This document shows positions 6,970-62,624 of a stretch of 64,000 bases of DNA, one piece after another. The stretch is from contig NZ_JAQNDK010000003.1 of assembly GCF_028368935.1 (NCBI RefSeq), positions 1 through 64,000 on the forward strand, read 5' to 3'. Source of the stretch: Sorangium aterium (lineage in GTDB: Bacteria > Myxococcota_A > Polyangia > Polyangiales > Polyangiaceae). The notes under the pieces are model-generated. The model made no database searches and had not been told where the DNA came from. It saw only the letters and a list, made by a program, of their open reading frames with translations. Position 1 is the first letter of the stretch. The number at the start of each line of letters is the position of its first letter. The position numbers and the translations under genes are program-made.

Positions 6970-7009
6970 CGAGCGCCCGAGAACGCGAGAACACGAGGTC
7001 AATCAAGCG

Positions 7010-7294
7010 ATGGGTCACCTGCTCAACCGCGAATCCGTCAAGGCGCAGAGCGCCAGGTCCGTGGGCCACGCCGAGGCCGCCGTGCGGCTCGATCTGCCTG
7101 TCGTCATCGACGAGGCGTCGTGCATCAAGGGCTGCCGCATCTGCATCGACTCGTGCCCGGTCGATTGCCTCGCCATCGATCCCGAGACGAAGAAGGCCCG
7201 CATGGCCTACGACGAGTGCTGGTATTGCCTCGCGTGCGAGATCGATTGCCCCAAAGAGGCCATCACCGTGAAGATCCCCTTTCTCATCCGATAA
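7010..7294 (+). CDS. 2[4Fe-4S] ferredoxin, AprB-like partner
   Basis: A 94-residue iron-sulfur protein with two cluster motifs: CIKGCRICIDSCP (first spacing C-x3-C-x2-C-x3-CP, slightly unusual) and CWYCLACEIDCP (canonical C-x2-C-x2-C-x3-CP). About 30 residues precede the first cysteine. Small dicluster proteins of this type are the electron-transfer beta subunit of APS-reductase-like flavoproteins. It follows the flavoprotein by 40 bases and precedes the HEAT-repeat gene by 21, so one transcript is likely. It is probably cytoplasmic, as no signal peptide is seen. Confidence 0.9.
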   Translation: MGHLLNRESVKAQSARSVGHAEAAVRLDLPVVIDEASCIKGCRICIDSCPVDCLAIDPETKKARMAYDECWYCLACEIDCPKEAITVKIPFLIR

Positions 7295-7315
7295 CGACCC
7301 CACGGCAGAGACGAC

Positions 7316-8290
7316 ATGACACAGCCTTCGCTCGCGCGGGATCTCGAGGGCATCCTCGGGGATCCCGACCCCGGCGCGCGCCAGCTGGCGCTGACGCAGA
7401 TAGAGGATCTCTCGGATCCGGAGATCATCCACCCCCTCATCGCGGCCGTCCGCGACGAGGATCCGACGGTGCGGGCGCTCGCGCTCGGGCACCTCGAGGA
7501 TCTCGGCGACGCCCGCTCGGTGCCCGCCGTCGTCGGGGCGCTCGACGACGAGGACGCCCGCGTGCGGGAGGCGGCCGCTACGGCGCTCCGGGAGATCCGC
7601 GGGGCGGACGCCGCCACGCACCTCATCGAGGCGCTGGGGCACACGAGCCCGTTCGTCCGCACCTCGGTGATCGTTGCGCTCCGGGAGATCCGCGACCCGC
7701 GGGCGCTCGCGCCCCTCGAAGGGGCGCTCGGCGACCCGGATCCCGAGGTGCGGCGCGAGGCGGTCCTCTCCCTGGCCTACCTGCGGCGGCCCGAGTCGGC
7801 GCCGGCGCTCCGCCCGAGCCTGCGCGATCCCGACGCGCGGGTGCGGCAGGTCGCGATCGGCGCGCTCGAGTCACTCGACGCGCCGGGGCTCGTCCAGGAC
7901 CTCGTGGGGCTGCTCTCCGATCCGGACTGGCGGGTCCGGGTCGAGGCCGCCATCGTGCTCGGCCGCTCGGCGCACGGCCTCGCGGCGCCGCACCTCCGGA
8001 GCGCCCTCGACGACGGCGCCTGGCAGGTCCGGAAGGAGGCGGCGCTCGCGCTCGGGCGGCTCCGGGCCGCCTCGGCCACGGAGGATCTGGTCGGGCTGCT
8101 CGGGAGCGACCTCGCGGATCTGCGCAAGGCGGCCGCGCAGGCGCTCGGCGAGATCGAGGCGGCGGCCGCGGAGGCGCCGCTCCGCCGTCTGCTCGGCGAC
8201 GCCGACGTCGAGGTGCGGAAGGCGGCCGGCCGCGCGCTCGATGCCATCCGGGCGGGGACAGGACGACATGAGACCTTTGCGAGGGATTGA
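7316..8290 (+). CDS. HEAT-repeat (PBS lyase-type) protein
   Basis: 324 residues made almost entirely of roughly ten 31-residue HEAT repeats with the recurring pattern LxDxDxxVRxxAxxALxxI, for example DPDPEVRREAV and DADVEVRKAAGRAL. Such solenoids act as protein-binding scaffolds or helpers of cofactor and iron-sulfur enzymes. No catalytic motif or signal peptide is visible. It sits between the ferredoxin gene and the ABC transporter genes, with only 4 bases to the next start, so it likely assists the flavoprotein-ferredoxin complex. That role is inferred from position. Confidence 0.85.
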   Translation: MTQPSLARDLEGILGDPDPGARQLALTQIEDLSDPEIIHPLIAAVRDEDPTVRALALGHLEDLGDARSVPAVVGALDDEDARVREAAATALREIRGADAATHLIEALGHTSPFVRTSVIVALREIRDPRALAPLEGALGDPDPEVRREAVLSLAYLRRPESAPALRPSLRDPDARVRQVAIGALESLDAPGLVQDLVGLLSDPDWRVRVEAAIVLGRSAHGLAAPHLRSALDDGAWQVRKEAALALGRLRAASATEDLVGLLGSDLADLRKAAAQALGEIEAAAAEAPLRRLLGDADVEVRKAAGRALDAIRAGTGRHETFARD

Positions 8291-8294
8291 ACCG

Positions 8295-9734
8295 ATGACC
8301 AGGGCGCTTCGCACGCTCGCCTTCCTCACGTTGCTCGCTGCGGTCCTCACCGGGCTGTCGTGCAAGCCGGAGGCGAAGCAGACGATCCGGATCGCGATCG
8401 GGACGCAGGACACGACCATCAATTGCGCCACCGGCGGGCTGCTCATCCGGGAGCTCAAGCTGCTCGAGAAGCACCTGCCGAGGGACGGCAAGTACAAGGA
8501 CGTCACGTACGAGATCGAGTGGAAGGACTTCACCTCCGGGCCGCCGCTGACGACCGAGATGGTGGCCGAGAAGCTCGATATCGGCGCGATGGCCGACTTC
8601 CCCGGCGTGCTGAACGGCGTGGCGTTCCAGAAGCAGGGGAGCCGCAGCCACTTCATCGCCACGCTCTCCGGCAGCGCGCTGGGGAGCGGCAACGGGATCG
8701 TCGTGCCGAGCGACTCCCCGGTTCAGGGCCTGAAGGACCTCAAGGGCAAGCAGATCTCCGTGCCGTTCGGGTCGTCGGCCCACGGCATGCTGCTCCGGGC
8801 GATCCGCGATCTCGGCTGGGATCCGGACAAGGACGTGACGCTCGTCTCGCAGTCGCCGGAGGTGGGCGGCTCATCGCTCAAGGCGAACAAGATCGACGCG
8901 CACGCGGATTTCGTCCCGTTCGCGGAGCTGTTCCCCTTCCGCGGCTTCGCCAGGAAGATCTACGACGGCTCCAGCGTGAAGGTGCCGACGGTGCACGGCG
9001 TGCTGGTGCGCGAGGCGTACGCGGAGAAATACCCGGAGATCGTCGTGGCCTTCCTCAAGGCGGCGCTCGAGGCCGACCGCCTGTTCGCGGAGGAGCCCGA
9101 GAAATACAGCGAGCTCATCGAGAAGGTGACCGGGGTGGACGCCGAGGTCGCCTACATGTTCCACGGCCCGCTCGGCATCCAGACGCGGGACTTCACGATC
9201 AAGCCCGAGGCCCGCCGCGCCCTCCAGGTGGCGGTGGACACGCTCACGCTGCTGAAGCGCACGGACACGACCCTCGATGTCGGCACGTTCGTGGACGACC
9301 GGTACATCCGGCGCGCGGCGGCGGAGCTCGGGCTCGACTACGAGGCGCGGCTCGCGAGCTACGCGAAGCTCCCGCTGTCCGGGAAGGACGCGCTGTCCGG
9401 GGAGCCGATCGCCGAGCCGACGCTGGCCGCGCAGATCTGGGTCGCGGGCGAGCCGAAGGTGCGCGCGTACGCGAGCCCCGGCACGGCGCTCGCCGCCCTG
9501 GGGCAGCTGAAGACCGAGGGCAAGGAGATCCGCGCGGTGTTCGTGCACGATCGCGCGAGCGGGGTGAAGCTCCTCGCCGATCGCGCGTGGTACGCGAGGC
9601 GCCCGGACGGCGGCCTGTCGGCGTTCCTGGCGAAGGAGGACGCGGAGCGGTGGGCCGCGGAGAACGGCGCGGCGGTCGTCGACTTCGCGACCCTGCAGGC
9701 CGAGCGCGCGAAGCTCACGGCGGCGGCGCCATGA
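8295..9734 (+). CDS. ABC transporter substrate-binding protein (NitT/TauT type) with NosL-like C-terminus
   Basis: 479 residues, well above the usual 320-350 of SsuA/TauA-type binding proteins. The signal peptide ends near a cysteine (LTGLSC at about 20-23), suggesting a lipoprotein although the lipobox is imperfect. Residues about 30-370 are a periplasmic binding fold, with DLKGKQISVPFGSS near 155-170 typical of NMT1/SsuA domains. The last 100 residues resemble NosL, the copper accessory protein of nitrous oxide reductase: a VHDRASG strand, then WYARRPDGGLSAF and AERWAAENGAAVVDF. The start at 8295 follows a GAGGG site 9 bases upstream. The stop overlaps the permease start (ATGA). Confidence 0.85.
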   Translation: MTRALRTLAFLTLLAAVLTGLSCKPEAKQTIRIAIGTQDTTINCATGGLLIRELKLLEKHLPRDGKYKDVTYEIEWKDFTSGPPLTTEMVAEKLDIGAMADFPGVLNGVAFQKQGSRSHFIATLSGSALGSGNGIVVPSDSPVQGLKDLKGKQISVPFGSSAHGMLLRAIRDLGWDPDKDVTLVSQSPEVGGSSLKANKIDAHADFVPFAELFPFRGFARKIYDGSSVKVPTVHGVLVREAYAEKYPEIVVAFLKAALEADRLFAEEPEKYSELIEKVTGVDAEVAYMFHGPLGIQTRDFTIKPEARRALQVAVDTLTLLKRTDTTLDVGTFVDDRYIRRAAAELGLDYEARLASYAKLPLSGKDALSGEPIAEPTLAAQIWVAGEPKVRAYASPGTALAALGQLKTEGKEIRAVFVHDRASGVKLLADRAWYARRPDGGLSAFLAKEDAERWAAENGAAVVDFATLQAERAKLTAAAP

Positions 9735-49627: not shown

Positions 49628-51265
49628 TCAGAGCCAGCTCTCGCCGATCGCGATCCCCGCCGAGGCCGCGATCGTCTCGGCGGCGCGCACGCCGCAGGCG
49701 TGCGCCTCCTCGAAGAGCGCCATCCCCGGCTGATCGACGTGAGCCCAGGCGACGCGCTCGGAGAGCGCGCAGCGCGGCTCGAACGGCCGCGGGCCGAGGA
49801 AGCCGGGGCGCGGGCGCGGCATCGCGTGACCCCAGATCATGACGTCCATCCGCTCGACGTCGTCGCGCAGGTGCGGGTGCGCCGGCGCGAGGTCGCGCAG
49901 CACGCCGTCGGCGAGCGACTCCCACGGCGCGCGGAGCAGCGCCGCGCGCGCGGCGGCCACGTCCGGCCCGCCGAAGGCGCGGTAGTAGGTCAGCACGGTG
50001 CGCTGCACCGGCGTCTCGAGGCGCGATCGCTGCATCGTCGCCGCCGCGAGATCGGTGAGCTGGTGGCGCGCGTCGACGTAGCCGAGCCCCTCGGCGCCGT
50101 AGAGGACGGAATCCCACGCGTGGTTGGGGTCGATCGGCCGCTCGACGTGCAGGTTCGCCACGAGCCACGCCGACGCGATCCGCTCCGGCAGGCCGCCCGC
50201 TGCGCTCCCCGCGAAGATCCGGCGCACGACGAACGCCGGCGCCGCGAGGATGGCCGCGCGGGCCTCGATACGGCGCGCCTCGCCGCGCTGCACGTCGACG
50301 TAGTCGATCTCGACGCGGCCGCCCGGCTGCGGGCGCACCGACGTGACGAGCGCGCCGAGCGACACGCGCGGCGCCGCGCGCTCGAGCAGCGCCTTCACGA
50401 GCCGGCCGTTGCCCTCGGGCCAGACGAGGTAGCGGCTGCCCGCGAGCTCCGGCGCGCGCGCCTTGCGCCCCGCGAAGTAGTGCAGCCCCGCCCAGGCCGA
50501 GATCTCCTCGGGCGCGCCGCCGAAGTCGTCGAGCATCGCGTAGCGCACGTACCAGCGAAGGAACGGCGTGCGGTACCCCTCGCGATCGAGCCACGCCGCC
50601 ATGCTCATCCGGTCGAGCTGGAGGAGCTCGGGGTCGCGCGAGGAGCGTTCGAGCGGGATCTGGAACGCCGGGCGCCCGTCGCTGCCGGTGAGCTCCGTGA
50701 GCTCCTCCTCGAACGCATGAAACCTCTCGAGCTCGTCCAGCGCCTCGCTCGAGAGCGCGTCGAGCGGCGCGAGGCCGCTGTGCCACGCGCCCTCGTAGAA
50801 CAGCCGCTCGCCCGGCGCGTGGCACAGCCGCCGCGGATCGAACGTGGGGCGCCCCGCCGCGTCCCACCCGGTGACGACGCCCATCTGCTCGAGCAGGCGC
50901 AGCGTCGCGCGCGCCTCGACGTTCGGCGCGGCGAGGTAGTGCGCGCCCCACGGGTACGGCACGACGCCGTCGTCGCCCCACGCGCTCGTGCCGCCTGGCC
51001 TCGGCTCGAGCTCGAGGACCCGCAGATCGAGCCCGGCACCGGCGAGCCGCCACGCGGCCGACAACCCGCTCACCCCGCCGCCGACGATCACGACGTCCGC
51101 GCGCTCGGCGGGGCCGCTCGCCGCGGGCAGCGGGCCGCCGCGGAGCAGGTGGCCCGCGCCGTGGGCCGCGCCGACGATCTCGCCGGCGAGCGGCGCGCGC
51201 CCGGGCGAGGCCGTGTGCACGACCCAGCCCGCGGCCACGGAGCTCAGGAAGCCGCGGCGGTTCAC
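49628..51265 (-). CDS. Tat-exported FAD-dependent amine-oxidase-like protein
   Basis: A 545-residue flavoprotein. The N-terminus MNRRGFLSS with a hydrophobic stretch is a twin-arginine export signal. VIVGGGVSGLSAAWRLAGAG (about 58-77) binds FAD, and the PGGTSAWGDDGV segment follows. The overall fold is that of amine oxidases/protoporphyrinogen oxidases. It is expected to be periplasmic. The gene lies 4 bases downstream of the spermidine-synthase-like gene on the same strand, so it may oxidise an amine made by that protein. Confidence 0.85.
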   Translation of the reverse strand: MNRRGFLSSVAAGWVVHTASPGRAPLAGEIVGAAHGAGHLLRGGPLPAASGPAERADVVIVGGGVSGLSAAWRLAGAGLDLRVLELEPRPGGTSAWGDDGVVPYPWGAHYLAAPNVEARATLRLLEQMGVVTGWDAAGRPTFDPRRLCHAPGERLFYEGAWHSGLAPLDALSSEALDELERFHAFEEELTELTGSDGRPAFQIPLERSSRDPELLQLDRMSMAAWLDREGYRTPFLRWYVRYAMLDDFGGAPEEISAWAGLHYFAGRKARAPELAGSRYLVWPEGNGRLVKALLERAAPRVSLGALVTSVRPQPGGRVEIDYVDVQRGEARRIEARAAILAAPAFVVRRIFAGSAAGGLPERIASAWLVANLHVERPIDPNHAWDSVLYGAEGLGYVDARHQLTDLAAATMQRSRLETPVQRTVLTYYRAFGGPDVAAARAALLRAPWESLADGVLRDLAPAHPHLRDDVERMDVMIWGHAMPRPRPGFLGPRPFEPRCALSERVAWAHVDQPGMALFEEAHACGVRAAETIAASAGIAIGESWL

Positions 51266-51269
51266 CGGA

Positions 51270-52874
51270 TCACCGGGTCCACTCGGCCCACTCGCGCGTG
51301 TACACGGAGACGAGCTTCTGGTCGTTCAGCCGGTTGATCGGCGCCTCGACGCGGCCGAGATCGCGAGGGAACCGGAAGAGCTCCGGCAGGCCGCTCGAGT
51401 CGAGGTAGCGGAGCCTCGACGGATCGATCCGGAGGGCGCCTGGCGCGGCGAGCCCCTCGCCGCCCGCCAGGATGAAGCCCCACTCGCCGAAGCTCGGAAC
51501 GTAGACGTGGAGCGGCGCGGTCTTGAAGCCGGCCGCCTCGAGCGTCGTCACGACGCACCAGAACGACTCGCGCGCGTAGTGAGGCGACGTCGCCTGGACG
51601 ACGGCGAGCCCGCGCACGGAGAGCCGCTGCCGGAGCAGGTGATAGAACGCGTCCGTGTACAGCTTGCCGACGGCGTAGTTGCCCGGATCGGGGAAGTCGA
51701 CGATCGCGAGATCGAACGACTCGGTCGACTCCTCGAGGTACTTGAACGCGTCCTCGTTGCGGACGGCGACGCGCGGGTCGCGGAGCGAGCCCTGGTTCAG
51801 CTCCGCGGCGAGCGGCAGATCGCGGAAGGCGCCGGTGACCGCGCCGTCCAGGTCGACGAGCAGGATCTGCTCGACCGACGGGTAACGGAGCAGCTCGCGC
51901 GCTGCGAGCCCGTCGCCGCCGCCGAGGATCAGCGCGCGCCGCGGCTCGCGCCCCAGCGCGGCGACGGCCGGGTGCACGAGCACCTCGTGGTACCGGTGCT
52001 CGTCGTCCGACGAGAACTGGAGGTTGCCGTTCAGGAAGAGGCGCGTCGTGCGCGGGCTCCTCGTGATGACGAGGCGCTGGTAGGGCGACTGCGCCGCGTA
52101 GACGATGGGCGCCCCGAAATAGAGCGCCTCCGAGCGCTCGACGAACCGCGAGACGAGCGCGAAGGCGACCCCGAGCCCAGCGATCACGATCAGGCAGAGC
52201 GCCCGCAGCCGGACGACGACGGCGCGATCGAGGGGGAACAGGAACGTGCTCGTGATCGCGACGGCCGCGTTGAGCATGCCGAAGAACAGGCTCGTCTGGT
52301 GGATCCCGAGGCGCGGCAAGAGGAGCGAGGGGAAGAGCAGGCTCGCGGCCAGCGCGCCGATGTAGTCGAGCGTGAGCACGCGCGCGACGAGCCGCTTGAG
52401 ATCGAGCGAGAAGTTGAGCAGCCGGATGAGCAGCGGGATCTCGAGCCCCACGAGCACCCCGATGAGCAGCACGAGCGAGTAGAGCAGCGCGCGGAACGAA
52501 CCGAGCGCCGTGTACACCCGGAAGAGCATCGGCGCGGAGAGCCCCCCGACGAGTGCGAGGCCGAGCTCGATCTCGACGAAGCGCTCGAGGAGCCGGCTCT
52601 CGATGTACTGGGAGAGGTACGAGCCGATCCCCATCGCGAACAGGTAAAGGCCGATGACGAAGCTGAACTGCGTCACCGAGTCGCCGAGGACGTAGCTCGC
52701 GAGCGTGCCGGTGATGAGCTCGTAGACGAGCCCCGACGTGGCGATGACGAACACGCTCGCGAGGAGCGCCGGGTGCACGAGCCGGGGCAGCGGCTGCGCA
52801 GCAGGAAAGGGCGCCGGAGCGTCCCCGGGAGGGGCGCCCCGAGCTCCCGCAGGGCTCTCCTCGGTGGCCGGCAT
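51270..52874 (-). CDS. Membrane-bound spermidine-synthase-like protein (polyamine aminopropyltransferase)
   Basis: 534 residues. About seven membrane helices occupy residues 35-250. The C-terminal domain (about 260-530) matches spermidine synthase, with the LILGGGDGLAAREL cofactor loop and the VDFPDPGN and LYTDAFYHLLRQRL segments. Enzymes of this class move an aminopropyl group from decarboxylated SAM; the fused membrane variants have unknown substrates. The start at 52874 is chosen from the first good ATG before the membrane part. It is divergent from the DUF4178 gene. Confidence 0.9.
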   Translation of the reverse strand: MPATEESPAGARGAPPGDAPAPFPAAQPLPRLVHPALLASVFVIATSGLVYELITGTLASYVLGDSVTQFSFVIGLYLFAMGIGSYLSQYIESRLLERFVEIELGLALVGGLSAPMLFRVYTALGSFRALLYSLVLLIGVLVGLEIPLLIRLLNFSLDLKRLVARVLTLDYIGALAASLLFPSLLLPRLGIHQTSLFFGMLNAAVAITSTFLFPLDRAVVVRLRALCLIVIAGLGVAFALVSRFVERSEALYFGAPIVYAAQSPYQRLVITRSPRTTRLFLNGNLQFSSDDEHRYHEVLVHPAVAALGREPRRALILGGGDGLAARELLRYPSVEQILLVDLDGAVTGAFRDLPLAAELNQGSLRDPRVAVRNEDAFKYLEESTESFDLAIVDFPDPGNYAVGKLYTDAFYHLLRQRLSVRGLAVVQATSPHYARESFWCVVTTLEAAGFKTAPLHVYVPSFGEWGFILAGGEGLAAPGALRIDPSRLRYLDSSGLPELFRFPRDLGRVEAPINRLNDQKLVSVYTREWAEWTR

Positions 52875-53010
52875 CGGCGCGGTCCTAGCACCGCTCGCGC
52901 TGGACCACAGCCTGTTCGGGCTCGCCGGCGCGCTGGTGAGCTCTGGCGAGCGTCCGCGCGCTGACGAGCTGCGGCGTGCGGCGTGTGCGGTACGCACGAC
53001 GTGCTCCGTG

Positions 53011-53125: not shown

Positions 53126-54598
53126 GTGAGCACGCCCTTCGACCGAGCAGCCGCGTGCCCCTCCTGCGGCGCGCCGATCACGTTTCGCTTCGCGGGCGCG
53201 ATGGCGCAGGTGTGCAAGCACTGCAAGTTCGTCGTCGCGCGCACCGATCGGGACCTCCGCGCCGTCGGGCGCGTCGCCGACTTGGTCGATATACCAACGC
53301 CCCTCCAGCTCGGCGTCACCGGGCGCTGGGGCAACGAGCCGTTCGTTGTCGACGGCCGCGTCCAGCTCGATCGGGCCAGCGCGCCGGGCGCGCCCTGGCA
53401 GGAGATCTTCATCGCGTTCCCGGCCAGCGGTCGCTGGACGTGGGTCGCCTTCGCTCAGGGGCGCTGGTACGCCACCACCGAGGCGCCGCTCCCGCTGAAC
53501 GGGCTGCCGCAGTGGAGCTCCCTCCAGCCGGGCGGCCGTGTCCACCTCGAGGGGCACGGCATGTTCACCGTCGTCGAGGTCGGCAGCCGGCGCGTGATCT
53601 CCGCCGAAGGAGAGATGCCCTACGTCGCCGCGCCGGGCGTGGTGACGGGCTTCGTCGACATCGCTGGGCCGAGGGGCGAGTTCGGGACGCTCGACTACGG
53701 CGACGGGCGGATGATCCCGCCCAAGCTCTACCTGGGCCGGCAGATCGACCCGGCCGTGATGAAGCTCGACACCGGCGCCCCTGTGGACCAGCCCACAGCG
53801 CAGGTGTCGGCCGTCGCGTGCCCGAACTGCGGCGGCAACCTTCCGCTCGCCGCGCCCGGCACCACGGAGCGCATCGTCTGCCGGTACTGCGGTACGGCGA
53901 GCGACCTCACGAAGGGCGCGCTCGTCGCGCTCGGCCAGGTCCCACGGCCGCCCATGGAGCCGTACGTCCCGCTCGGCGCCGAGGGCCAGCTCCGCGGCAC
54001 GCGCGTGCTCTGCATCGGCTTCGTCATCCGGGGCTGCACGGTGGAGGGCGAGCGCTACCGCTGGCGGGAGTACCTGCTCTACGGCGGGCCGAGCGTCGGC
54101 TACCTGTGGCTGATGGAAGAGGACGGCGCGTGGCAGCTCGTGACGCCTCTCTCACCCGGCGAGGTCCAGCCGATGGGCTCGACGGCGAGCTATCAAGGGC
54201 GGACGTACGCGCTCAAGCAGAGCGTCCACGCCGAGGTGGAATACGTCATCGGCGAGTTCTACTGGAAGGTCGAGATCGGCGAGGCGGTGCAGGCCACGGA
54301 GTACGAGGGCGAAGGCGGCAAGGTCAGCATCGAGCAGGCCCCGACCGAGGTGAGCGTGTCATTCTGCTCACCGCTTCCAGGGAAGGAGCTCGCCGCCGCC
54401 TTCCACCTGCCGCCCCCGCCGAGCCCCTCGTTCGGCGGCGGGACGAGCGCCAGCGCCGGCACGGTCGTCGTCATCGTCGTCGTCCTGATCGTCGTCCTCC
54501 TCATTCTCATCGCGCTCAGCGACTGCGGTGGGGGCGGCGGCGGCGTCATCTTCATTCCGAGCGGGGGGGGCAGCCCGAGCTTCGGCGGTGGGAAGTGA
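53126..54598 (+). CDS. Double DUF4178/zinc-ribbon protein with C-terminal membrane anchor
   Basis: 490 residues. A zinc ribbon CPSCGAPITFRF...CKHC lies near residues 11-34, followed by a DUF4178-like domain; a second zinc ribbon CPNCGGNL...CRYCG (about 232-258) precedes a second DUF4178-like domain. A helix of valine/isoleucine-rich residues (about 445-465) anchors the C-terminus, with glycine-rich ends. DUF4178 proteins are often encoded next to polyamine aminopropyltransferases, which is also true here. The function is unknown. It starts with GTG. Confidence 0.82.
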   Translation: MSTPFDRAAACPSCGAPITFRFAGAMAQVCKHCKFVVARTDRDLRAVGRVADLVDIPTPLQLGVTGRWGNEPFVVDGRVQLDRASAPGAPWQEIFIAFPASGRWTWVAFAQGRWYATTEAPLPLNGLPQWSSLQPGGRVHLEGHGMFTVVEVGSRRVISAEGEMPYVAAPGVVTGFVDIAGPRGEFGTLDYGDGRMIPPKLYLGRQIDPAVMKLDTGAPVDQPTAQVSAVACPNCGGNLPLAAPGTTERIVCRYCGTASDLTKGALVALGQVPRPPMEPYVPLGAEGQLRGTRVLCIGFVIRGCTVEGERYRWREYLLYGGPSVGYLWLMEEDGAWQLVTPLSPGEVQPMGSTASYQGRTYALKQSVHAEVEYVIGEFYWKVEIGEAVQATEYEGEGGKVSIEQAPTEVSVSFCSPLPGKELAAAFHLPPPPSPSFGGGTSASAGTVVVIVVVLIVVLLILIALSDCGGGGGGVIFIPSGGGSPSFGGGK

Positions 54599-54908
54599 TC
54601 CAGTTTCACTGCTCTATTCGGTTGCGTATGAAATAAACGGCCTGCGTCGGTGCGTCTTTTGCGATCCCGGCTGGTGTCGTGTCGGGCACGAGCAGCGCTG
54701 GACATGTCTATGTCCACCTCCGTGGAAAGGCGACATCGCGTCGAGCGGAGCGGTCGGATTCGGGCAGATGATGGTCGGTTTCGGGTATCGACCGCCGCCG
54801 GCCGCCGCTGGCGATCGAATGATTTCAATGGCTTACGCGCTGGCCACCGGCGGCCCGTGACGTGCAATGTGCCGTCCGACGCCGGCGGTGGGCCGGCGGC
54901 GGAGGCCC
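54599..54908 (+). other. Intergenic region before the isoprenoid/subtilase operon
   Basis: 310 bases with no gene that I can support. A weak sigma-54-like sequence lies at 54684-54699 (GG at 54685, GC at 54697), but its -12 part lacks the TT, so it is not called as a promoter. Confidence 0.45.
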
Positions 54909-55217
54909 ATGCAAACCGTGAATTCGATCGACCCGCACGCACAGCTGCGTGCGCTCTACATCTCGCTGCTCCGAAACCAGGAGTACTTCGACGAGTTCAA
55001 GCAGTTGCTCGCCCTCTACGTCGTCGCGCCCGAGGCAGACGAGGAGCCGGTGGACGCGGCCAGGATCCGCGCGCAGCTCAACGGCCGCATCCGCTCCTGG
55101 ATCGGCGGCTTCTTTGATGGGCTGAGCGCCTCCCAGGTGCTCCAGTGGCGCGCGATCGTGGTCGAGGAGCGCTTCAACGTGTGCCTGTCGCCCTGGAAGG
55201 AGTCGAACGTCTATTGA
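54909..55217 (+). CDS. Small hypothetical protein upstream of isoprenoid-synthase-like gene
   Basis: 102 residues, predicted helical and soluble, with no signal peptide or cysteine cluster. It contains LRALYISLLRNQEYFDEFKQ near 18-37 and ends ERFNVCLSPWKESNVY. A GGAGG site lies 5-9 bases before ATG 54909, supporting translation. The next gene starts 157 bases downstream on the same strand. I do not recognise the family; it could be an accessory or substrate of the downstream enzymes. Confidence 0.6.
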   Translation: MQTVNSIDPHAQLRALYISLLRNQEYFDEFKQLLALYVVAPEADEEPVDAARIRAQLNGRIRSWIGGFFDGLSASQVLQWRAIVVEERFNVCLSPWKESNVY

Positions 55218-55373
55218 TGCTGCGGCGCAGGCGACAGGCGGGGTTGCACCGCCATCGGCGTACGTCTCACCGGCGCGGCTCTGCCCCGGCGCCATCTACC
55301 GGCGCCCGGAGCGCGCCGCGCACCGCGAGCGCCGAGCCCGGCGCGGCGCGCCGGGCGATGGAGGTGCCCGCGC

Positions 55374-56477
55374 ATGGATGACGCCCTCTGGGTGGACGAG
55401 CTCTACAAGGCGTTCTGGCGGACCCTCCCCGGGATGCTGCACGCCGACGCGCAGGGGCTGGCCTACACGCTCGGCCTGTCCCCGTCGCGCGACGTGCCCT
55501 GGAGCGCCGTGTTCAGCAACGAGATCACGCTGGCCGCGCCCGCGCTGCTCGCGGAGGCCATGCCGGGCGTCCGCGGGGCCACGGTACAGGACGCGCTGCT
55601 CGCGCACATGCTCGCCGTCATCGAGGCGTTCGGCACCGATCGCATCAAGGACAAGCAGGTCCGCCCGACCTGGCAGCTCGAGGCCATCCTGGCGCACGCT
55701 CGGCGGGCGCGCGACGACGCGCTCCGCCGCGTCGCGCCAGGCGTCGACGACCCGGCCATCGATTTCGCGCGCGCGGACGACGCGACGCTGTTCGCCATCG
55801 AGACCGAGCGCAGCCTCCTGGCGAGCGGCGGGCCCGCCGGCTTCAGCCGCTACTACGCGCTCTCCCTCGGCAAGCAGAGCGTCGGCTTCCCGGCGTCGAT
55901 CGCCCTCGCGCACGCCGCCGGCTGGAACGCCGAGCGGCGCGAAGTGCTCGCGCGGCTGCTGTCGTCGGTGTGGCTCGGGCTGCAGCTCCACGACGACGTC
56001 ATGGACTGGCAGGACGACTACCAGCGAGGCGGCGCCTGGGCCGTCGTCCTGGCCTCGGAGCTCCGATCGCGCGCGCACGGAGAGCCCCAGGCCGAAGAGC
56101 GCGATCGGGAGCGCGCCTCGGAGCCGCGCCACCGCGGTGCCGTCGCGTACGGGCCGCTCGGCACGCCGCCCTGGGGGATCGCGGTGACGCCGAAGGCGCA
56201 GAGCGAGCCGCCGATCCCCGACGCGCCCTCGTCCCTGCTCCCCGTCCGCCGGATCGTCCTCGAGTCCGGCGTCCTCGCGGCGATGCTCGACGGCGAGCGC
56301 CGGTGCTTCCGCGCCGCGCGGCGGCGGGCCGCCGTGCTCGGCGCTCGCCGCGTCGCGGCCTGGGCGGAGGGGAGGGAGGGGCAAGCCCAGGAGCTCGCGC
56401 GGTGCGAGGCCGAGAGCCCCGGCTTCGCCAACCGCGCCCACGCGCTCAACGCCTGGGCCAAGGCCGTGCTGGCATGA
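55374..56477 (+). CDS. Class I isoprenoid-biosynthesis-enzyme-like protein
   Basis: 367 residues with an all-helical pattern. Two Asp-rich sites resemble prenyl synthases: a degenerate first one (DRIKDKQ, about 88-94) and a clear second one, LQLHDDVMDWQDD (about 203-215). In prenyl transferases these bind Mg2+ and diphosphate. The length fits the family. The weakened first motif suggests an altered substrate or a terpene cyclase-like reaction. Its stop overlaps the subtilase gene start (ATGA), so they are coupled. The C-terminus (about 260-367) is Ala/Arg-rich. Confidence 0.72.
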   Translation: MDDALWVDELYKAFWRTLPGMLHADAQGLAYTLGLSPSRDVPWSAVFSNEITLAAPALLAEAMPGVRGATVQDALLAHMLAVIEAFGTDRIKDKQVRPTWQLEAILAHARRARDDALRRVAPGVDDPAIDFARADDATLFAIETERSLLASGGPAGFSRYYALSLGKQSVGFPASIALAHAAGWNAERREVLARLLSSVWLGLQLHDDVMDWQDDYQRGGAWAVVLASELRSRAHGEPQAEERDRERASEPRHRGAVAYGPLGTPPWGIAVTPKAQSEPPIPDAPSSLLPVRRIVLESGVLAAMLDGERRCFRAARRRAAVLGARRVAAWAEGREGQAQELARCEAESPGFANRAHALNAWAKAVLA

Positions 56478-58444
56478 GCCGCGGCCGCGGCGCGGCCGCG
56501 CGAGGGGGGGCGGGCTCTCCGGAGGAGGGGTCCGCGCGCGCGCGTCCGGCGCCCGGCCGCAAGAGCGCGCCGCCTCCCGCGTCGTCGGCCGCGCCGAGGA
56601 CGCGCCCGCGGCGCCCGCCGTGGGACTTCGGCTATGCCCCGGTCCCCACCGCCGCCGGCGACGACGACGGTGGTCCCCTCGACGTCGTCGTCGCCTCGCG
56701 GTGCCCCGTCGCGCCCGACGCGGTCGCCGAGGCGCTCGGGGAGCGCTGGTCTGGCGTCGCGGTCGAGCGCGTCATCGAGCGGACGCCCATCTTCTGGCTC
56801 CGCGTCCGATCCCCCGATCGCGGGCGGCGCGCGGACGTCGTCGCGGCGCTCTCGGCCGCGGCGCTGCCGGTGCGCTACGTCGCGTCGGCCCGGCGCCCGA
56901 GCGCCGCCGTCGCCCCCCGCTTCGACGCGGCCGCCGGCGCCGCGGCGCGCCCCGAGGGGTGGAAAGCGCGCGGCGCGTCGGACGAGGACGAGCCCGTCAC
57001 CCCTGGCCGCTGGTTCCTGCGCGACGAGGGCGGCGGGATCGGCGTCGATCGCCGCCGTTGCGGGGGCGGCGCCGGGATGCGCCTCGGGGTCATCGACGAC
57101 GACGCCTGGACGGCCGACGAGCTCGGCCTCGAGCGCGAGGTGCTCGTCATGATGGAGCAGCCGCCGCGCAGCCAGGCGCACGGCGCGTTCATGGTCGCGT
57201 GGGCCGTCGGGGGCCGTCGCCCCGGCGGGTTCCGCGGCGTCGCGCCGGACGCGTCGCCCCGGCTCTACCTGATCCCGAAGCCTGGATCGTGCGTCCTCGC
57301 CCTGCCGGTCGCGATCGTCCAGGCGGTCAGCGACGGCGCCGACGTCGTTGTGTGCGCCGCGTACGTCGAGGGCTCGACGACGCCCATGCTCGACGACGCG
57401 CTCGAGTTCGCCGCCCGCCTCGGGCGCCGCGGCCGGGGCTGCCCCGTCGTGTTCCCCACCGGCCGCGAGGCCTCGAGCCCTCCCGAGTCGCTGCACGCGA
57501 GCTTCTCGCTCGGGTTCGGCGAGCCCGCGAGCGACCCGCGCGTGTTCTGCGTCGGTCCGGGCGCCCGCGGCGACGGGTGGTTCCTCTGGCGGGACCGCCG
57601 GGGGCGGAGTCGCCCCTTCGCCAACCGCGGCCCGGCGGTGCGGTGGCTCGCGCCAGGGGACGACCTCGCCTGCCCGCTGCCGTCCGCGTCCAGCGCGACC
57701 CCCGCGCTCGAGCGGCTCTGCCACGCCGAGTCGAGCGGGGCCTCGGCGCTCGCCGCGGGCTCGCTGCTCCTCATCCTGTCGCAGAACCCGTCGCTCCGCC
57801 TGCCCGAGCTCGACGCCCTCGTGATGCGCACGCTCGCCCCGGTGCCTCCCGCGGCGCCCGCGTCGGCCGAGCCGATCGCCGACCCGTGGGACGTGCTCCC
57901 CGACGGGCGCGATCGCGACGGCCACAACGCCAAGCACGGCTACGGCCGCATCGACGCCGGTCGAGCTTGCCTCGCCGCCGGAGATCCGATCGCGCTCGCG
58001 CTGGTGCTCATCGGCGAGGACGGCGCCGCGCGCATCTGGCACGACGTCCGCGCCGAGGGCCCGCTCCTCCGCCGCCTGTACTCGCGCCGCCTCGCGCGCT
58101 GGGCCGTCCGGGCGCTGCTCGCCGACCCGAGCCTCTGCCACGGCGTCTGCGCGCTCGTGCGCCACGCCCGCCTCACCGCGGGCGACCCCCGGCGCCGGCG
58201 CGCCCACGGCGCCGGCGCCGTGCTGCGGCAGCTCTCGCTCCTCGTCCGCGCCCTCGCGGCGAGCCGCGCGGCGCCGCCGCCCTCGCCGCGCGTGCGGGAC
58301 GAGATCACCGCCGTGCTCGACCGGCTCGAGCGATCGGCGACCGACGCCGCCGCCGTCGCCGAGGTCGAGTCTCGCTTCGGAGCGCTGGCCGACGTCGTGT
58401 TCGCGGACGCCACGGACGGCGACGCGCACGAGGGCGCCGCCTGA
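56474..58444 (+). CDS. Divergent S8 (subtilisin-like) peptidase
   Basis: 656 residues. The first 60 are disordered and basic; there is no obvious signal peptide. The catalytic triad is recognisable: Asp in LGVIDDDAW (about 206), His in SQAHGAFMVAWA (about 236) and Ser in SSGASALAAGSL (about 422). The oxyanion segment that usually reads AAGNEG is VVFPTGREASS, so the Asn is missing and activity may be altered. The C-terminal 180 residues are helical and unrelated to subtilases. It is coupled to the isoprenoid-synthase-like gene and seems cytoplasmic, which is unusual for the family. Confidence 0.78.
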   Translation: MSRGRGAAARGGAGSPEEGSARARPAPGRKSAPPPASSAAPRTRPRRPPWDFGYAPVPTAAGDDDGGPLDVVVASRCPVAPDAVAEALGERWSGVAVERVIERTPIFWLRVRSPDRGRRADVVAALSAAALPVRYVASARRPSAAVAPRFDAAAGAAARPEGWKARGASDEDEPVTPGRWFLRDEGGGIGVDRRRCGGGAGMRLGVIDDDAWTADELGLEREVLVMMEQPPRSQAHGAFMVAWAVGGRRPGGFRGVAPDASPRLYLIPKPGSCVLALPVAIVQAVSDGADVVVCAAYVEGSTTPMLDDALEFAARLGRRGRGCPVVFPTGREASSPPESLHASFSLGFGEPASDPRVFCVGPGARGDGWFLWRDRRGRSRPFANRGPAVRWLAPGDDLACPLPSASSATPALERLCHAESSGASALAAGSLLLILSQNPSLRLPELDALVMRTLAPVPPAAPASAEPIADPWDVLPDGRDRDGHNAKHGYGRIDAGRACLAAGDPIALALVLIGEDGAARIWHDVRAEGPLLRRLYSRRLARWAVRALLADPSLCHGVCALVRHARLTAGDPRRRRAHGAGAVLRQLSLLVRALAASRAAPPPSPRVRDEITAVLDRLERSATDAAAVAEVESRFGALADVVFADATDGDAHEGAA

Positions 58445-58653
58445 GCGCGCTCCCGTCCCGCCGTGGGGTGATCCCGCTCTCATCTCCGCGGGAAAACGTA
58501 ATAATAATTGCGTAGTAGCGCTGCTGGGGCGCCAGGATCGCGGGTGCCGGGCGCGTTGCACGCCGTCCGGCGCGCGAGGCCCGTTGGTTCACTCGGAATT
58601 CCAGCGTATCGTGAGTGGCTGGCGGCGCAATTTGCGCGCCGTCGGCTCTCCCG

Positions 58654-61017
58654 ATGCCCGCTATCGAGAATCGGCGTTGGCTCCTCGCGGTGGTTGTCCT
58701 CGCGGCGCTCGTGCTGGGCGGCTCGGGGATGAGGAGCGCTCTGAGCTGGTACGAGCGCCCGTTCCCCGGCGTGCTCGTCGATCCGGACGGCGTGGTCTCG
58801 AGCGTGGGCCTGCCGTCCTGGGAGGGCTTCCAGAAGGGCCTCCGGTACCCGGATCGCGTCGTTGAGGTCGACGGCTGGCGCCTCGAGAGCACCGCGGGGC
58901 GCTACCGCGCCGGCGCCTGGGATGCGGCGGTCGAGAGGGCGGCGCGCGAGGGGCATCGCTCGGTGAAGGCCCGCGTCGAGACGGCGGAGGGGCTGCGCGA
59001 CGTCGAGCTCTCCCTCGTCCCCTTCGACGCGCTCGCCTGGTGGTTCTACGCCGGCGGGCTGATGGTCGTCGCCTCGCTCTACGTGGGCGCCGCGCTCATC
59101 GCCCTCAGCGCGAGCCCTCGCGGCAAGCTCGCCCGCGCCTTCGCGAGCGCCGCGCTGTTCGCCGCGCTCTTCCAGTTCGCGCTGTTCGACTACCACAGCT
59201 CGCGCCACCTCGTCCCGTTCTTCCACGTCGCCTACGCGCTCGTCCCGATGAGCTTCTTCACGCTGGCGCTGCGGCTGCCGGACGACGTCCCGCTCATCGC
59301 GCGCTACCCCGTCTTCGCGCGGATCGCGCACGGGCTCGGCGGCCTGCTCGCCGCCGCCCTGCTCGCCTCGCACGCGATGGGCTGGACCACCGTCGCGCTC
59401 CGGAGCGTCTGCGCGATCCTGTTCGTGGCGTCGTTCTTCTTCTTCGCGACCACGCTGATCCTCCGCTTCGCCGCGGCGGAGGGCGACCGCCGCCGCACGC
59501 TGCGCGCGCTGCTCCTCGCGATGGCGCCGCCGCACGTGGTGATCGCCCTGGGCTTCATGCTGGCCATGCTCGGCGCCCCGGCGTCGACGCTCGCGTGGTT
59601 CGCGATCCCCGCGCTCGCCCTCACGCCCGTCTCGAGCGTCGTCGCGTTCATCCGCTACGACCTCTGGGGGAGCCGCGCGCTCCTGTCGCGCCCGCTCACG
59701 CGCGTCATCATCGCCTGCATGATGGTCGCGCTCACGGTGATCCTCTGCTCCGCGTGCGCGGGGTACGCCGGCCTCCCGCTGCTCGGCGCGATCAAGGTCG
59801 CGGCGCCGGCCGCCGTCGTCAGCGCGGCGCTCGTCGTGTTCGCGCTCGGCGCCGGCGATCGGAAGCTCTTCCCGGCGCGCGCGGAGTACAAGCCCACCGT
59901 CGAGCAGCTCAGCGAGGAGCTGACGCTCGTCGCCGATCCCGACGAGGTCGCCTTCGCGGTCGAGCGCACGGTGGCGCGCTGGCTCTCCTGCGAGCGGGTC
60001 ACCTTCCGTCGCATCGCGGTCGACGCGGCCGACGGCGCGAGCGCGGGCAACGCCGGCGCCGCGCCGGGCGAGCCGGCGCCGAGGGCGGACGAGTCGAGCG
60101 GCGAGCGGGTCATCGAGGTCGAGCCCTCCGAGAAGAGCGCGAGCGCGAGCGAGCTCTCGCTGACGGTCATGTTCCGCGGCCGGCTGCTCGGCGTCCTCGA
60201 GGTGGGCAAGAAGCGCGGCGGCGCCCTGTTCACGAGCGAGGATCTCGACCTGCTCCGCACGATCGGCAACCAGGCCGCGCTCGCCATGGCGCACGCCCAC
60301 AGCTACGCGGAGCTGGAGCGGCGGCGGCGTGAGCAGGCCGCCGCGTGGCGCGACGAGCGCGCGGCGCTCATCGAGACGCTCGCGGCCGAGATCACCCACG
60401 AGGTGCGCTACCCGATCAACTTCTTCCGCTCCGTGTTCAAGCGCGGCTCGAGCAACCAGAGCCTGGACGCCGAGGAGGTCGAGATCGGCTGCGAGGAGGT
60501 CGAGCGCCTCGAGCGCCTCGTGATGGGGCTGCGCCGGGTGACGCACAGGAAGCTCGAGCGCCGCCGCCTCGCGGTCGAGGAGCTCGTCAGCCGGGCGGAG
60601 ATGCTCCTGCGCGATCAGCTCGGCAAGCGGCGGATCGAGGCGCGCGTGAGCGCGGGATCGAGGCTCCGCTGCGATCCCGATCAGGCCACGCAGGTGCTCG
60701 TCAACCTCCTCTCGAACGGCCTCGACGCGGCCGGCGACAAGGGGACGATCGGGGTCGTCTGGGAGACCACCGAGAGCGGCGCCGAGCTCGTCGTGTGGGA
60801 CACGGGGCCGGGCATCTCGGGGGACGCGTCGCGCCTCTTCGCGCCCTGGTACACGACGAAGCCGCGTGGGACCGGGCTCGGGCTCGCCATCACGCACCGC
60901 ATCGTCCGCGCCCACGGGTGGTTGATCGAGCCGGAGCGGCGCGACGGCACGACGCGGTTCGTGATCTCGATCCCCGCCGCCGACGTCTCCATGACCGCTG
61001 AGGACGAGGTCGCGTGA
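58654..61017 (+). CDS. Membrane sensor histidine kinase
   Basis: 787 residues. A first helix (about 8-25) is followed by a PDZ-like or small periplasmic stretch with VVEVDGWRLES (about 70-80), then seven or more membrane helices (about 125-400). A GAF-like domain follows (about 410-560), then the dimerisation domain with His in EITHEVRYPI (about 580) and an ATPase domain with VNLLSNGLDAAG, DTGPGIS and GTGLGLAIT. Its GTG/TGA overlap with the next gene marks a two-component operon. Start 58654 is chosen over 58615 because the hydrophobic helix then starts near residue 8. Confidence 0.92.
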   Translation: MPAIENRRWLLAVVVLAALVLGGSGMRSALSWYERPFPGVLVDPDGVVSSVGLPSWEGFQKGLRYPDRVVEVDGWRLESTAGRYRAGAWDAAVERAAREGHRSVKARVETAEGLRDVELSLVPFDALAWWFYAGGLMVVASLYVGAALIALSASPRGKLARAFASAALFAALFQFALFDYHSSRHLVPFFHVAYALVPMSFFTLALRLPDDVPLIARYPVFARIAHGLGGLLAAALLASHAMGWTTVALRSVCAILFVASFFFFATTLILRFAAAEGDRRRTLRALLLAMAPPHVVIALGFMLAMLGAPASTLAWFAIPALALTPVSSVVAFIRYDLWGSRALLSRPLTRVIIACMMVALTVILCSACAGYAGLPLLGAIKVAAPAAVVSAALVVFALGAGDRKLFPARAEYKPTVEQLSEELTLVADPDEVAFAVERTVARWLSCERVTFRRIAVDAADGASAGNAGAAPGEPAPRADESSGERVIEVEPSEKSASASELSLTVMFRGRLLGVLEVGKKRGGALFTSEDLDLLRTIGNQAALAMAHAHSYAELERRRREQAAAWRDERAALIETLAAEITHEVRYPINFFRSVFKRGSSNQSLDAEEVEIGCEEVERLERLVMGLRRVTHRKLERRRLAVEELVSRAEMLLRDQLGKRRIEARVSAGSRLRCDPDQATQVLVNLLSNGLDAAGDKGTIGVVWETTESGAELVVWDTGPGISGDASRLFAPWYTTKPRGTGLGLAITHRIVRAHGWLIEPERRDGTTRFVISIPAADVSMTAEDEVA

Positions 61018-62624
61018 AGATCCTGATCGTCGATGATCAGCGGAGCGGCCGCCGCACGCTGCGGCAGATCCTGGCCGCGCTCGACGAGGTCGAGGTGATC
61101 GAGGCGGTCGGCCTGGACGACGCGATGGCCGCCGTGGAGCGGAGCGCGCCGGACCTCCTGCTCCTCGACGTGCGTCTGTCGGACGATCCGCGCGACCGCG
61201 GCGGCCTGGAGATCCTGCGGCGCGTGCGGGCCTCGGGGCGGAGCACGCCCGCGCTGATGGTCACGTCGGTCAGCGAGCTCTCCGAGATCCGCGAGGCCAT
61301 GCGGCTCGGCGCGCAGGACTACGTGCTGAAGGACGAGCTCTGCCCGGAGATGCTCCTGCCGATCATCGAGGGCCAGCGCGAGCGGCTGCTCCTGAAGGGC
61401 GAGGTGGTGCGGCTCCGCGAGCGGGTCGACCGCACGTTCGGCACGAAGGCGCTCCTCGGCTCGTCCGCGGGGATGGAGCGCGTCCGCCGGATCATCGAGC
61501 GGGTCGCCGAGTCGAACAAGACGGTGCTCATCCGCGGCGAGACCGGCAGCGGCAAGGAGATGGTCGCCCGCGCGCTGCACGAGATGAGCTCGCGCCGCGG
61601 CGAGCCGTTCGTCGCGGTCAACTGCTCTGCGCTGCCGGGGACGCTCATCGAGTCGCTCATCTTCGGGCACGAGCGCGGCGCCTTCACCGGCGCCGAGAAG
61701 CGCATGCGCGGCCAGCTCGAGCTCGCGGGCGCCGGCACCATCCTGCTCGACGAGATCGCCGAGATGCCCGGCGAGCTCCAGGCGAAGCTCCTCCGCGTCG
61801 TCGAGGATCGCCGCTTCCGCCCCCTCGGCGCCGAGTCGGAGATCCCGCTGCGCGCCCGCGTCCTCGCCGCGACCCACGTCGACCTGGAGAAGCGCATCAG
61901 CGAGGGGCGCTTCCGGGAGGACCTCTTCTACAGGCTCAACGTCGTCACGGTGCACGTCCCGTCGCTCGCCGAGCGCGACGCCGATCTCATCGAGCTCCTG
62001 CTCGCGTTCAGCGCGGAGCTCCCGCGCAAGCTGCGCTACACCGACGACGCGATCGCGTGGCTGGTCCGGCGGCCCTGGCCCGGCAACGTGCGCGAGCTCC
62101 GGAACGTCGTCGAGCGGCTGGGGCTGCTCGCGGACGACGATCTCATCGACGTCCCCACGCTCGAGGAGCTCGCGCGCGAGCGCCCGGTCGTGGACGCCAC
62201 CGCGGAGATCGACCGGCTGGCGCGCGCCCTGCTCGCGCTGCCCGAGCGGCTGGGATCGAAGCTCCGCGTGATCGAGCGCGCCGTCCTGCACCACGCGATC
62301 GAGAGCTGCGGCGGCAACAAGGCGGCGGCGGCGCGCCTCATCGGCGTCGATCGGAAGATGCTCGAGCGGCGCTGGGACCGGCACACCGGCGAGGAGCCGC
62401 CGAGCAGCCGGCGGATGTCGATGCCGACGCCGATCGCCGGGCGCCACCTCGGCGAGGAGCCGCCGAGCAGCCGGCGTCACACGCCCGCGAACGGGACGCG
62501 GCACCTCGGCGAGGAGCTGTCGGGCAGCCGCAACCAGACGCCCGCGAACTTGCCGCGGTACGTCGGCGAGGAAGCGCCGACCACCCGCCGCCAGGTGCTG
62601 CCGCCAGGCCACGACGACGCCTGA
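61014..62624 (+). CDS. NtrC-family sigma-54-dependent response regulator
   Basis: 536 residues. A receiver domain (1-120) has Asp52 as the phosphate acceptor (LLLLDVRLSDDP). The sigma-54 activator AAA domain follows (about 140-380), with Walker A GETGSGKE and the sigma-54 contact loop GAFTGAEKR. A Fis-like helix-turn-helix (about 420-455, NKAAAARLIGVDRKMLERR) ends the conserved part. The last 80 residues carry four GEEPPSSRR-type repeats that are not part of the family. It is coupled to the kinase upstream (GTGA) and would activate sigma-54 promoters. Confidence 0.93.
   Translation: MKILIVDDQRSGRRTLRQILAALDEVEVIEAVGLDDAMAAVERSAPDLLLLDVRLSDDPRDRGGLEILRRVRASGRSTPALMVTSVSELSEIREAMRLGAQDYVLKDELCPEMLLPIIEGQRERLLLKGEVVRLRERVDRTFGTKALLGSSAGMERVRRIIERVAESNKTVLIRGETGSGKEMVARALHEMSSRRGEPFVAVNCSALPGTLIESLIFGHERGAFTGAEKRMRGQLELAGAGTILLDEIAEMPGELQAKLLRVVEDRRFRPLGAESEIPLRARVLAATHVDLEKRISEGRFREDLFYRLNVVTVHVPSLAERDADLIELLLAFSAELPRKLRYTDDAIAWLVRRPWPGNVRELRNVVERLGLLADDDLIDVPTLEELARERPVVDATAEIDRLARALLALPERLGSKLRVIERAVLHHAIESCGGNKAAAARLIGVDRKMLERRWDRHTGEEPPSSRRMSMPTPIAGRHLGEEPPSSRRHTPANGTRHLGEELSGSRNQTPANLPRYVGEEAPTTRRQVLPPGHDDA
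62384..62600 (+). repeat. Imperfect repeats encoding a GEEPPSSRR tail
   Basis: Four units of about 60-70 bases encode HxGEEPPSSRR-like peptides separated by Pro/Thr/Asn-rich linkers at the C-terminus of the NtrC-type regulator. The first two cores are identical at the protein level; the last two have diverged. Confidence 0.7.

Follow-up and report, generated by a model that had tools for sequence, protein, structure and literature searches.

Organization of the locus

The window analysed here, a stretch of 64,000 nucleotides of Sorangium aterium (contig C3, positions 1-64000, part of a genome of 13.5 Mb), contains an operon of five genes in the order X-Q-S8-HK-RR, spanning 54909-62624 (Table 1). 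The genes encode a small protein (X), an enzyme with the predicted fold of an isoprenyl diphosphate synthase (IDS; Q), a subtilase-like protein (S8), a sensor histidine kinase (HK) and a response regulator (RR). We describe the conserved set and order of these genes, the folds and motifs of their products, an operator-like site upstream and a covariation between S8 and the C-terminus of X, all of which may belong to one signalling circuit.

An initial annotation had listed a three-gene unit of a small unknown protein, an isoprenoid-synthase-like enzyme and an inactive-looking cytoplasmic subtilase. All three open reading frames (ORFs) were confirmed, but the unit is larger, as the kinase and the regulator (58615-62624) had been missed. 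Ratios of nonsynonymous to synonymous substitutions (dN/dS) against four relatives lie between 0.13 and 0.41 for X (0.13-0.36), Q (0.31-0.37) and S8 (0.23-0.41), hence these are not chance ORFs; the corresponding ranges are 0.32-0.36 for HK and 0.13-0.17 for RR. The start Met of X is aligned in 10/10 alignment rows (the window and 9 relatives), the start in each relative having been chosen by script near the expected place. The ribosome site of X, which had been called good, does contain GGAGG, but this ends only 3 nucleotides before the ATG.

Table 1. Coordinates of the operon genes and of predicted upstream elements in the window.
Feature	Position	Strand	Description
Dyad unit 1	54751-54766	+	16-bp quasi-palindrome near TGSYCGGATCCGRSCA; candidate binding site of the operon's regulator
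Dyad unit 2	54772-54787	+	21 bp from unit 1
Sigma-54-like -24/-12 element	54851-54866	+	CGGCCCGTGACGTGCA; 9/12 consensus letters; weak
X	54909-55217	+	102 residues; C-terminus LSPWKESNVY
Q	55374-56477	+	367 residues; predicted class I isoprenyl diphosphate synthase fold
S8	56474-58444	+	656 residues; cytoplasmic subtilase-like; ATGA overlap with the end of Q
HK	58615-61017	+	Sensor histidine kinase; alternative start ATG 58654 possible
HK parts			First transmembrane helix (TM1), PDZ-like loop, further transmembrane helices, GAF, H-box HEVRYP, HATPase
RR	61014-62624	+	NtrC-type: receiver, sigma-54 AAA+ with GAFTGA, Fis-type helix-turn-helix; ATGA overlap with HK

Distribution across the class

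A first search among 144 relatives gave X in 10. Profile searches over 317 genomes of the class detected it in 20, with 21 X genes in total (G355 carries two), and the flanks of all 21 were read. X heads the operon in 16 of the 20 genomes. Fourteen of these operons include S8; the two that lack it (G496 and G497, both of one genus) have Q, and S8 was not found there at E<=1e-20. HK and RR follow in order in all 14 operons whose contig is long enough, the contigs of L021 and L070 ending earlier. The remaining five X genes stand alone (G353, G354, G357, G358 and the second X of G355), and the first four of these genomes, which are drafts, have neither Q (E<=1e-3) nor S8 (E<=1e-20). Completeness of the drafts G353, G354, G357, G358, G496 and G497 is 82-93 percent. 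Eight genera, belonging to two families, retain the block between differing flanks; in the distant genera the proteins are about 40-70 percent identical.

S8 (E<=1e-20) occurs in 16/317 genomes, every time directly beside Q and in 14 of them with X at the head; in G350 and G352, which make up the 16, the start of the contig falls at the edge of Q or within it, and no X was found. Profile matches of Q (E<=1e-3) are present in 33/317 genomes and represent clear relatives in 28, of which 27 score at E 1e-44 or better and the last (G352) is truncated where its contig starts; the remaining five, weak matches are probably common prenyl synthases. The 28 genomes comprise the 16 operons, G350, G352 and ten genomes without X and S8. 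A search of plasmids for Q gave no match.

The initial annotation had asked for co-occurrence of the three genes across myxobacteria, and an X-Q-S8 operon is indeed present in 14/317 genomes. Its idea that the genes form a new system of modification or regulation is supported, and neither of the outcomes named there as refuting it came about: the genes occur together and X is conserved.

Two side observations concern unusual arrangements. In G300 (L036), two Q genes flank X (4927-5883 and 6404-7372); the tandem dyad described below is repeated in front of the first of them, whose first Asp-rich motif is short of one Asp. For the stand-alone X genes (L073-L077, family f58), the neighbours are an rRNA-methyltransferase-like gene on one side and a large, divergent kinase-matching gene on the other (names given by eye); in L075 the contig ends beyond X.

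The small protein X and its C-terminus

X is conserved along its whole length, with 68-93 percent identity to 9 relatives. It has no match in Pfam at E up to 1, nor in NCBIfam, PADLOC or PHROGs, and by the same Pfam search it is not a member of the ComX family PF05952. Comparison with solved structures returned a single match at E 0.96, which is chance level. Trp96, the seventh residue from the end of 102, is invariant in 21/21 X proteins.

The C-terminal end of X varies together with the presence of S8. Beside S8, X ends in LSPWK[ED]SNxY in 14/14 cases. In both operons without S8 it stops after ...ESN. In one of them (L071), ESN is followed by a stop codon and a Phe codon, as would result from a change of the x codon to a stop. 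The stand-alone proteins end in ESRN (two), EARN, PWGN and ESGRFASIS, that is, xY is present in 0/5 and a terminal Asn in 4/5. Taken together, X without S8 beside it has xY in 0/7 and a terminal Asn in 6/7. A tree of all 21 X proteins places the forms without S8 in two distinct groups, and its supported branches require a minimum of two changes. This covariation in two lineages points to X as a substrate of S8. The simplest reading of these sequences is that S8 would remove the last two residues after Asn (N|xY), and that lineages without S8 encode X in a pre-trimmed form. Alternatively, xY may serve merely as a docking tag for S8.

The subtilase-like protein S8

Against the Pfam S8 family, the window protein scores 21.7 bits at a cut-off of 21.8, and in a search of the whole genome with this family it was not among the 13 matches. 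NCBIfam gave a chance-level match only. The first 60 residues contain no hydrophobic stretch, consistent with the earlier view of a subtilase without signal peptide. The description as inactive-looking stands in part: the oxyanion Asn position, placed by motif position, is Arg (Arg331) in all rows of two alignments, but Asp208, His236 and Ser424 are kept in 9/9 rows of each (13 different proteins; L021, cut by a contig end, G350 and G352 are excluded). Judged from these residues, S8 is not clearly inactive.

The enzyme Q

The Q protein of the window has no Pfam match at E up to 1. When 11 relatives were searched, polyprenyl_synt came up for two of them (best E 0.011), and a different family, at what looks like chance level, for three. 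A profile of these 11 relatives retrieved prenyl diphosphate synthases from the PDB (best E 7e-6). The AlphaFold model (predicted local distance difference test, pLDDT, 84.7; predicted template modelling score, pTM, 0.81; residues 236-285 disordered) superposes with VIA on the solanesyl diphosphate synthase 9jr6 over 273 residues (Z 23.0, root mean square deviation 2.9) and on the free-tryptophan farnesyltransferase Ord1 over 272 residues (Z 19.6, 15 percent identity). Foldseek by itself reaches no better than E 1.9e-3, so that the evidence for the fold comes from the second aligner together with coverage and profile. According to the model, Q has the fold of a class I isoprenyl diphosphate synthase, in agreement with the isoprenoid-synthase-like enzyme noted before.

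DRIKD (residues 89-93) stands at the first and DDVMD (207-211) at the second Asp-rich motif, and Gln204 and Lys167 are kept; the motifs were assigned by colinearity with the structure alignment, not residue by residue. The best profile alignment would put DDVMD at the first motif, most other alignments at the second. Of the DDxxD pair of canonical trans-isoprenyl diphosphate synthases, Q thus has the second alone. Twelve Q copies from operons were aligned: DDxxD at the second motif is present in 11 (not L071) and Lys167 in all, and the first motif reads DRxxD in nine (not L036a, L071, L072) and DDxxD in none. Gln204 and Asp207 stand at positions said to hold indole in Ord1/PalQ-type enzymes (PMC13290415), and canonical synthases also have both.

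Kinase and regulator

By Pfam, HK contains HATPase_c and a weak HisKA, and RR contains Sigma54_activat and HTH_8. The H-box is present in 9/9 HK proteins, and GAFTGA in 8/9 RR proteins, the ninth (L034) reading GVFTGA. Hydropathy of HK gave 12 windows, which we merged to ten transmembrane segments. In a model of the sensor part (pLDDT 82.6, pTM 0.85), TM1 is followed by a small beta-alpha domain (approximately residues 34-124) and then by eight full helices and the start of another, as the model ends inside the tenth transmembrane-like helix. For the small domain, Foldseek listed one PDZ entry in the first 50 rows (6al0, E 0.13, probability 1.00). Its profile matched the PDZ domains of DegP/DegQ/DegS at E 6.6e-4 (probability 27 percent, 36 columns), three controls giving 0.23-0.29, and Pfam reported no PDZ domain in four members. 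On the basis of the predicted secondary structure, this Foldseek row and the profile match, we describe the loop after TM1 as PDZ-like. The Foldseek list for the whole sensor consisted mostly of G-protein-coupled receptors (best VIA Z 13.5), from which nothing is claimed, this being about chance level for helical bundles.

The sensor part is retained in 13/14 operons in which HK is visible. Aligned over three distant genera, identity amounts to 45-53 percent in the sensor and 60-64 percent in the cytoplasmic half. In the operon L071 (G497; 6694-9324), which lacks S8, HK has only 490 residues, without the PDZ-like loop and the first transmembrane helices, and X is kept; Q of the same locus has lost DDxxD, and the two changes look like joint decay. 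The C-terminus of RR carries repeated GEEPPSSRR-like units, and RR length varies between strains.

Anti-phage defence was considered and dropped, as PADLOC returned nothing for the first four genes of the operon (X, Q, S8, HK). RR did match, to three CARF-AAA-HTH models and a further three, as would be expected from the common AAA+ and receiver domains that it carries. PHROGs gave no match for X, Q and S8 either.

The upstream site

A tandem dyad lies upstream of X in 16/16 operons and in 0/5 of the stand-alone genes. The spacing of its units is 21 bp, or 22 bp in G496 and G497, and in L068-L070 and L072 one of them is perfectly palindromic. Scores against the dyad consensus are 25-31 of 32 in all 17 operon-type regions (including the extra Q of L036) and 16-18, equal to background, before the five stand-alone X genes. 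Out of 400 random stretches, 390 score 15-22 and 10 score 27-31; the stretches were taken from the same loci, and the ten high scorers probably overlap true sites. By chance, 0.01 tandem dyads are expected in the window. With up to 3 mismatches allowed, the tandem dyad occurs once in each of 6 genomes of the genus, and the reversed control pattern never.

The best sigma-54-like element 3' of the dyads matches 8-10 of 12 consensus letters in 15/17 regions and 6-7 in L071 and L072, in a scan that had no shuffled control; four regions (L034, L036, L036q1, L067) are without the -24 GG. Dyad and element are a good fit to an NtrC-type activator of its own operon, with binding of RR to the dyad as the prediction. 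A further, perfect dyad GGACATGTCTATGTCC was seen upstream of the operon at about 54700-54715, and is present in 4/6 loci of the genus (the window, L017, L019, L021).

Comparison with known systems

The initial annotation compared the genes with cyanobactin systems. This comparison is not the best one: because kinase and regulator belong to the operon, the nearest known layout is that of ComQXPA. Likewise, it took likeness to a prenyl synthase as an argument against a peptide prenyltransferase, an argument which does not hold, as ComQ and PalQ are prenyl-synthase-like enzymes acting on peptides (PMC5331326, PMC13290415, PMC10853753). Characterised peptide prenyltransferases of the trans-IDS-like type are few; PMC13290415 names ComQ, PalQ and ChrPC. 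ComQ, PalQ and ComP were compared with Q and HK by their published description.

As in ComQXPA, adjacent genes on the same strand encode an IDS-fold enzyme, a small protein with a Trp close to its C-terminus, a kinase and a regulator, and the gene of the IDS-fold enzyme adjoins the small gene, whose product X may be the precursor. Trp96 of 102 fits the ComX precursors, which have a Trp within 5-10 residues of the C-terminus (PMC4008528). With about ten transmembrane helices and a PDZ-like loop after TM1, HK has the published layout of ComP, which in Bacillus amyloliquefaciens comprises ten transmembrane helices, the first two of them joined by a PDZ loop of 85 residues, and a cytoplasmic part from residue 382 (PMC9620489). 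On the other hand, the host is a myxobacterium, whereas the comQXPA census of 2014 lists Firmicutes only (PMC4008528); X comes first in the order, is nearly twice as long as ComX and is conserved; and S8 is added. RR is of the NtrC/sigma-54 type and HK has a weak HisKA, whereas ComP belongs to PF07730 and ComA to PF00196 (PMC4008528), and neither X nor the HK sensor shows hypervariability. Judged by sequence, the operon is not a member of the ComQXPA family.

In Paenibacillus alvei, the trans-IDS-like Trp prenyltransferase PalQ is encoded beside an NHLP precursor (PalX) and a histidine kinase (PalP) (PMC10853753). This cluster shares with the operon an IDS-fold enzyme next to a histidine kinase gene and a (here putative) precursor. 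It differs in the NHLP leader of PalX, whose Trp is C-terminal, in its three genes, described as lacking S8 and regulator, and in its phylum. Ord1 has the same fold as Q and a Gln three residues before the second Asp-rich motif, as canonical synthases also do, but the identity given above is low. We found no prior description of the operon in the literature searched, which covered few subscription papers and no preprints.

Proposed mechanism and alternatives

We hypothesize that the five genes form an autoregulated signalling operon working like ComQXPA, a reading to which we give about an even chance. X would be a signal precursor or signal protein. Q may attach an isoprenoid to X, most likely at Trp96, and S8 may clip the C-terminal dipeptide after Asn100 (N|xY). 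X would have to cross the membrane, and matured X or a piece of it would act as ligand on the PDZ-like/transmembrane sensor of HK. Phosphorylated RR would then bind the tandem dyad upstream of X and turn on its own operon via a sigma-54 promoter. A more specific version, a prenylated-peptide circuit of ComQXPA type outside Firmicutes, with a self-inducing Gram-negative loop in which a dedicated subtilase removes the C-terminal dipeptide from a 102-residue prenylated protein that is read by a PDZ/ten-helix kinase, is put forward tentatively, the balance being somewhat on the side of doubt.

A number of observations weigh against this proposal. Hydropathy revealed no hydrophobic segment in X, and there is no exporter gene in the operon (none was sought elsewhere in the genome). 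Trp96 is kept in 5/5 stand-alone X proteins, four of them in genomes without Q and S8, and is therefore not there solely for Q. The link between S8 and the C-terminus of X is based on two events only, and S8 has Arg at the oxyanion position. In the 6 genomes of the genus no second tandem dyad was found, which leaves no known target outside the operon. The Asp-rich motifs of Q are reversed in comparison with ComQ: the second is intact and the first is DRxxD, whereas ComQ has an intact first DDxxD and a pseudo-second motif NDxxx or GDxxx, and DDxx(D) at the second motif is considered unsuitable for Trp prenylation by ComQ in the same review (PMC5331326). The Trp of X is located at -7, outside the -2 to -4 window shown for one ComQ (PMC5331326), and the strong conservation of X differs from the extreme sequence variability of ComX (PMC4008528). 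Moreover, Q occurs without X and S8 in ten genomes (G242, G277, G297, G500, G433, G435, G216, G440, G441, G444). No conserved small gene was recognised beside lone Q in five region pairs compared and in the upstream ORFs read in six genomes; matches were limited to low-complexity and short weak ones and a leader of about 150 bp, with the flanks of G444/G441 nearly identical and thus uninformative, and those of G500 and G435 shortened by contig ends. In G242, the neighbour of Q shares 76 percent identity with the UDP-glucose-dehydrogenase-like gene (named by eye) flanking the window operon, so this Q may be a remnant of a lost operon.

Part of this evidence would fit X as an intracellular regulator, lipidated by Q and trimmed by S8, which docks at the membrane and sets HK from inside, the PDZ-like/transmembrane part of HK sensing something else, e.g. 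envelope stress. We regard this as unlikely, although worth serious attention. Conservation of X extends over the entire protein, as for a folded partner, and the missing hydrophobic segment and exporter gene are in line with this idea, as are the shortened kinase of G497 with its retained X and the divergent large kinase-matching gene beside stand-alone X in 5/5 cases. The sensor of HK, however, has the ComP layout and is kept in all but one of the operons with HK visible. Another possibility is that the signal itself would be a free isoprenoid diphosphate or lipid, produced or sensed by Q, with X as adaptor and S8 as scaffold or pseudo-protease. The ten genomes with Q alone, six of which keep both DRIxD and DDVVD (G277, G297, G500, G440, G441, G444), and the loss of the oxyanion Asn speak for it; the conserved catalytic triad of S8, and the tracking of S8 presence by the end of X in two lineages, speak against it, and we judge it improbable.

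Cyanobactin pathways connect the S8 maturation proteases PatA/PatG with a gene-encoded peptide and a prenyl enzyme, and have a cyclodehydratase and a prenyltransferase of the ABBA fold. An S8 peptidase, a prenyl-group enzyme and an adjoining short gene are also found in the present operon, which might thus be a natural-product cluster for a ribosomally synthesized and post-translationally modified peptide with S8 as maturation protease. However, the operon has no cyclodehydratase, X, Q and S8 have no NCBIfam match (apart from that at chance level for S8) or PHROGs match, Q has an IDS fold other than that of the cyanobactin enzyme, a two-component system is present, and X is not variable; this explanation is very improbable and was rejected. 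That the genes are mere neighbours without functional link has an even slighter claim, although loci of the genus share wider synteny around the block, since it recurs in eight genera and two families with differing flanks, gene overlaps and one shared upstream site.

Flanking genes

A zinc-ribbon and DUF4178 protein is encoded just upstream of the operon (53126-54598). On the reverse strand (49628-52997), a gene for a Spermine_synth-domain protein adjoins an ORF with a twin-arginine-like start and, by eye, the look of a flavin amine oxidase. The DUF4178 and spermine-synthase-like genes were seen only in loci of the genus and in G260, and the unit is therefore taken to extend from X to RR.

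Implications

If the proposed mechanism is true, the operon would be a Gram-negative counterpart of ComQXPA that packages modifying enzyme, protease, receptor and upstream site in one locus. S8 would represent the protease step, which for ComX is described as unknown (PMC10853753). The locus is found in social bacteria with very large genomes and would make the question of signal maturation testable in one place.

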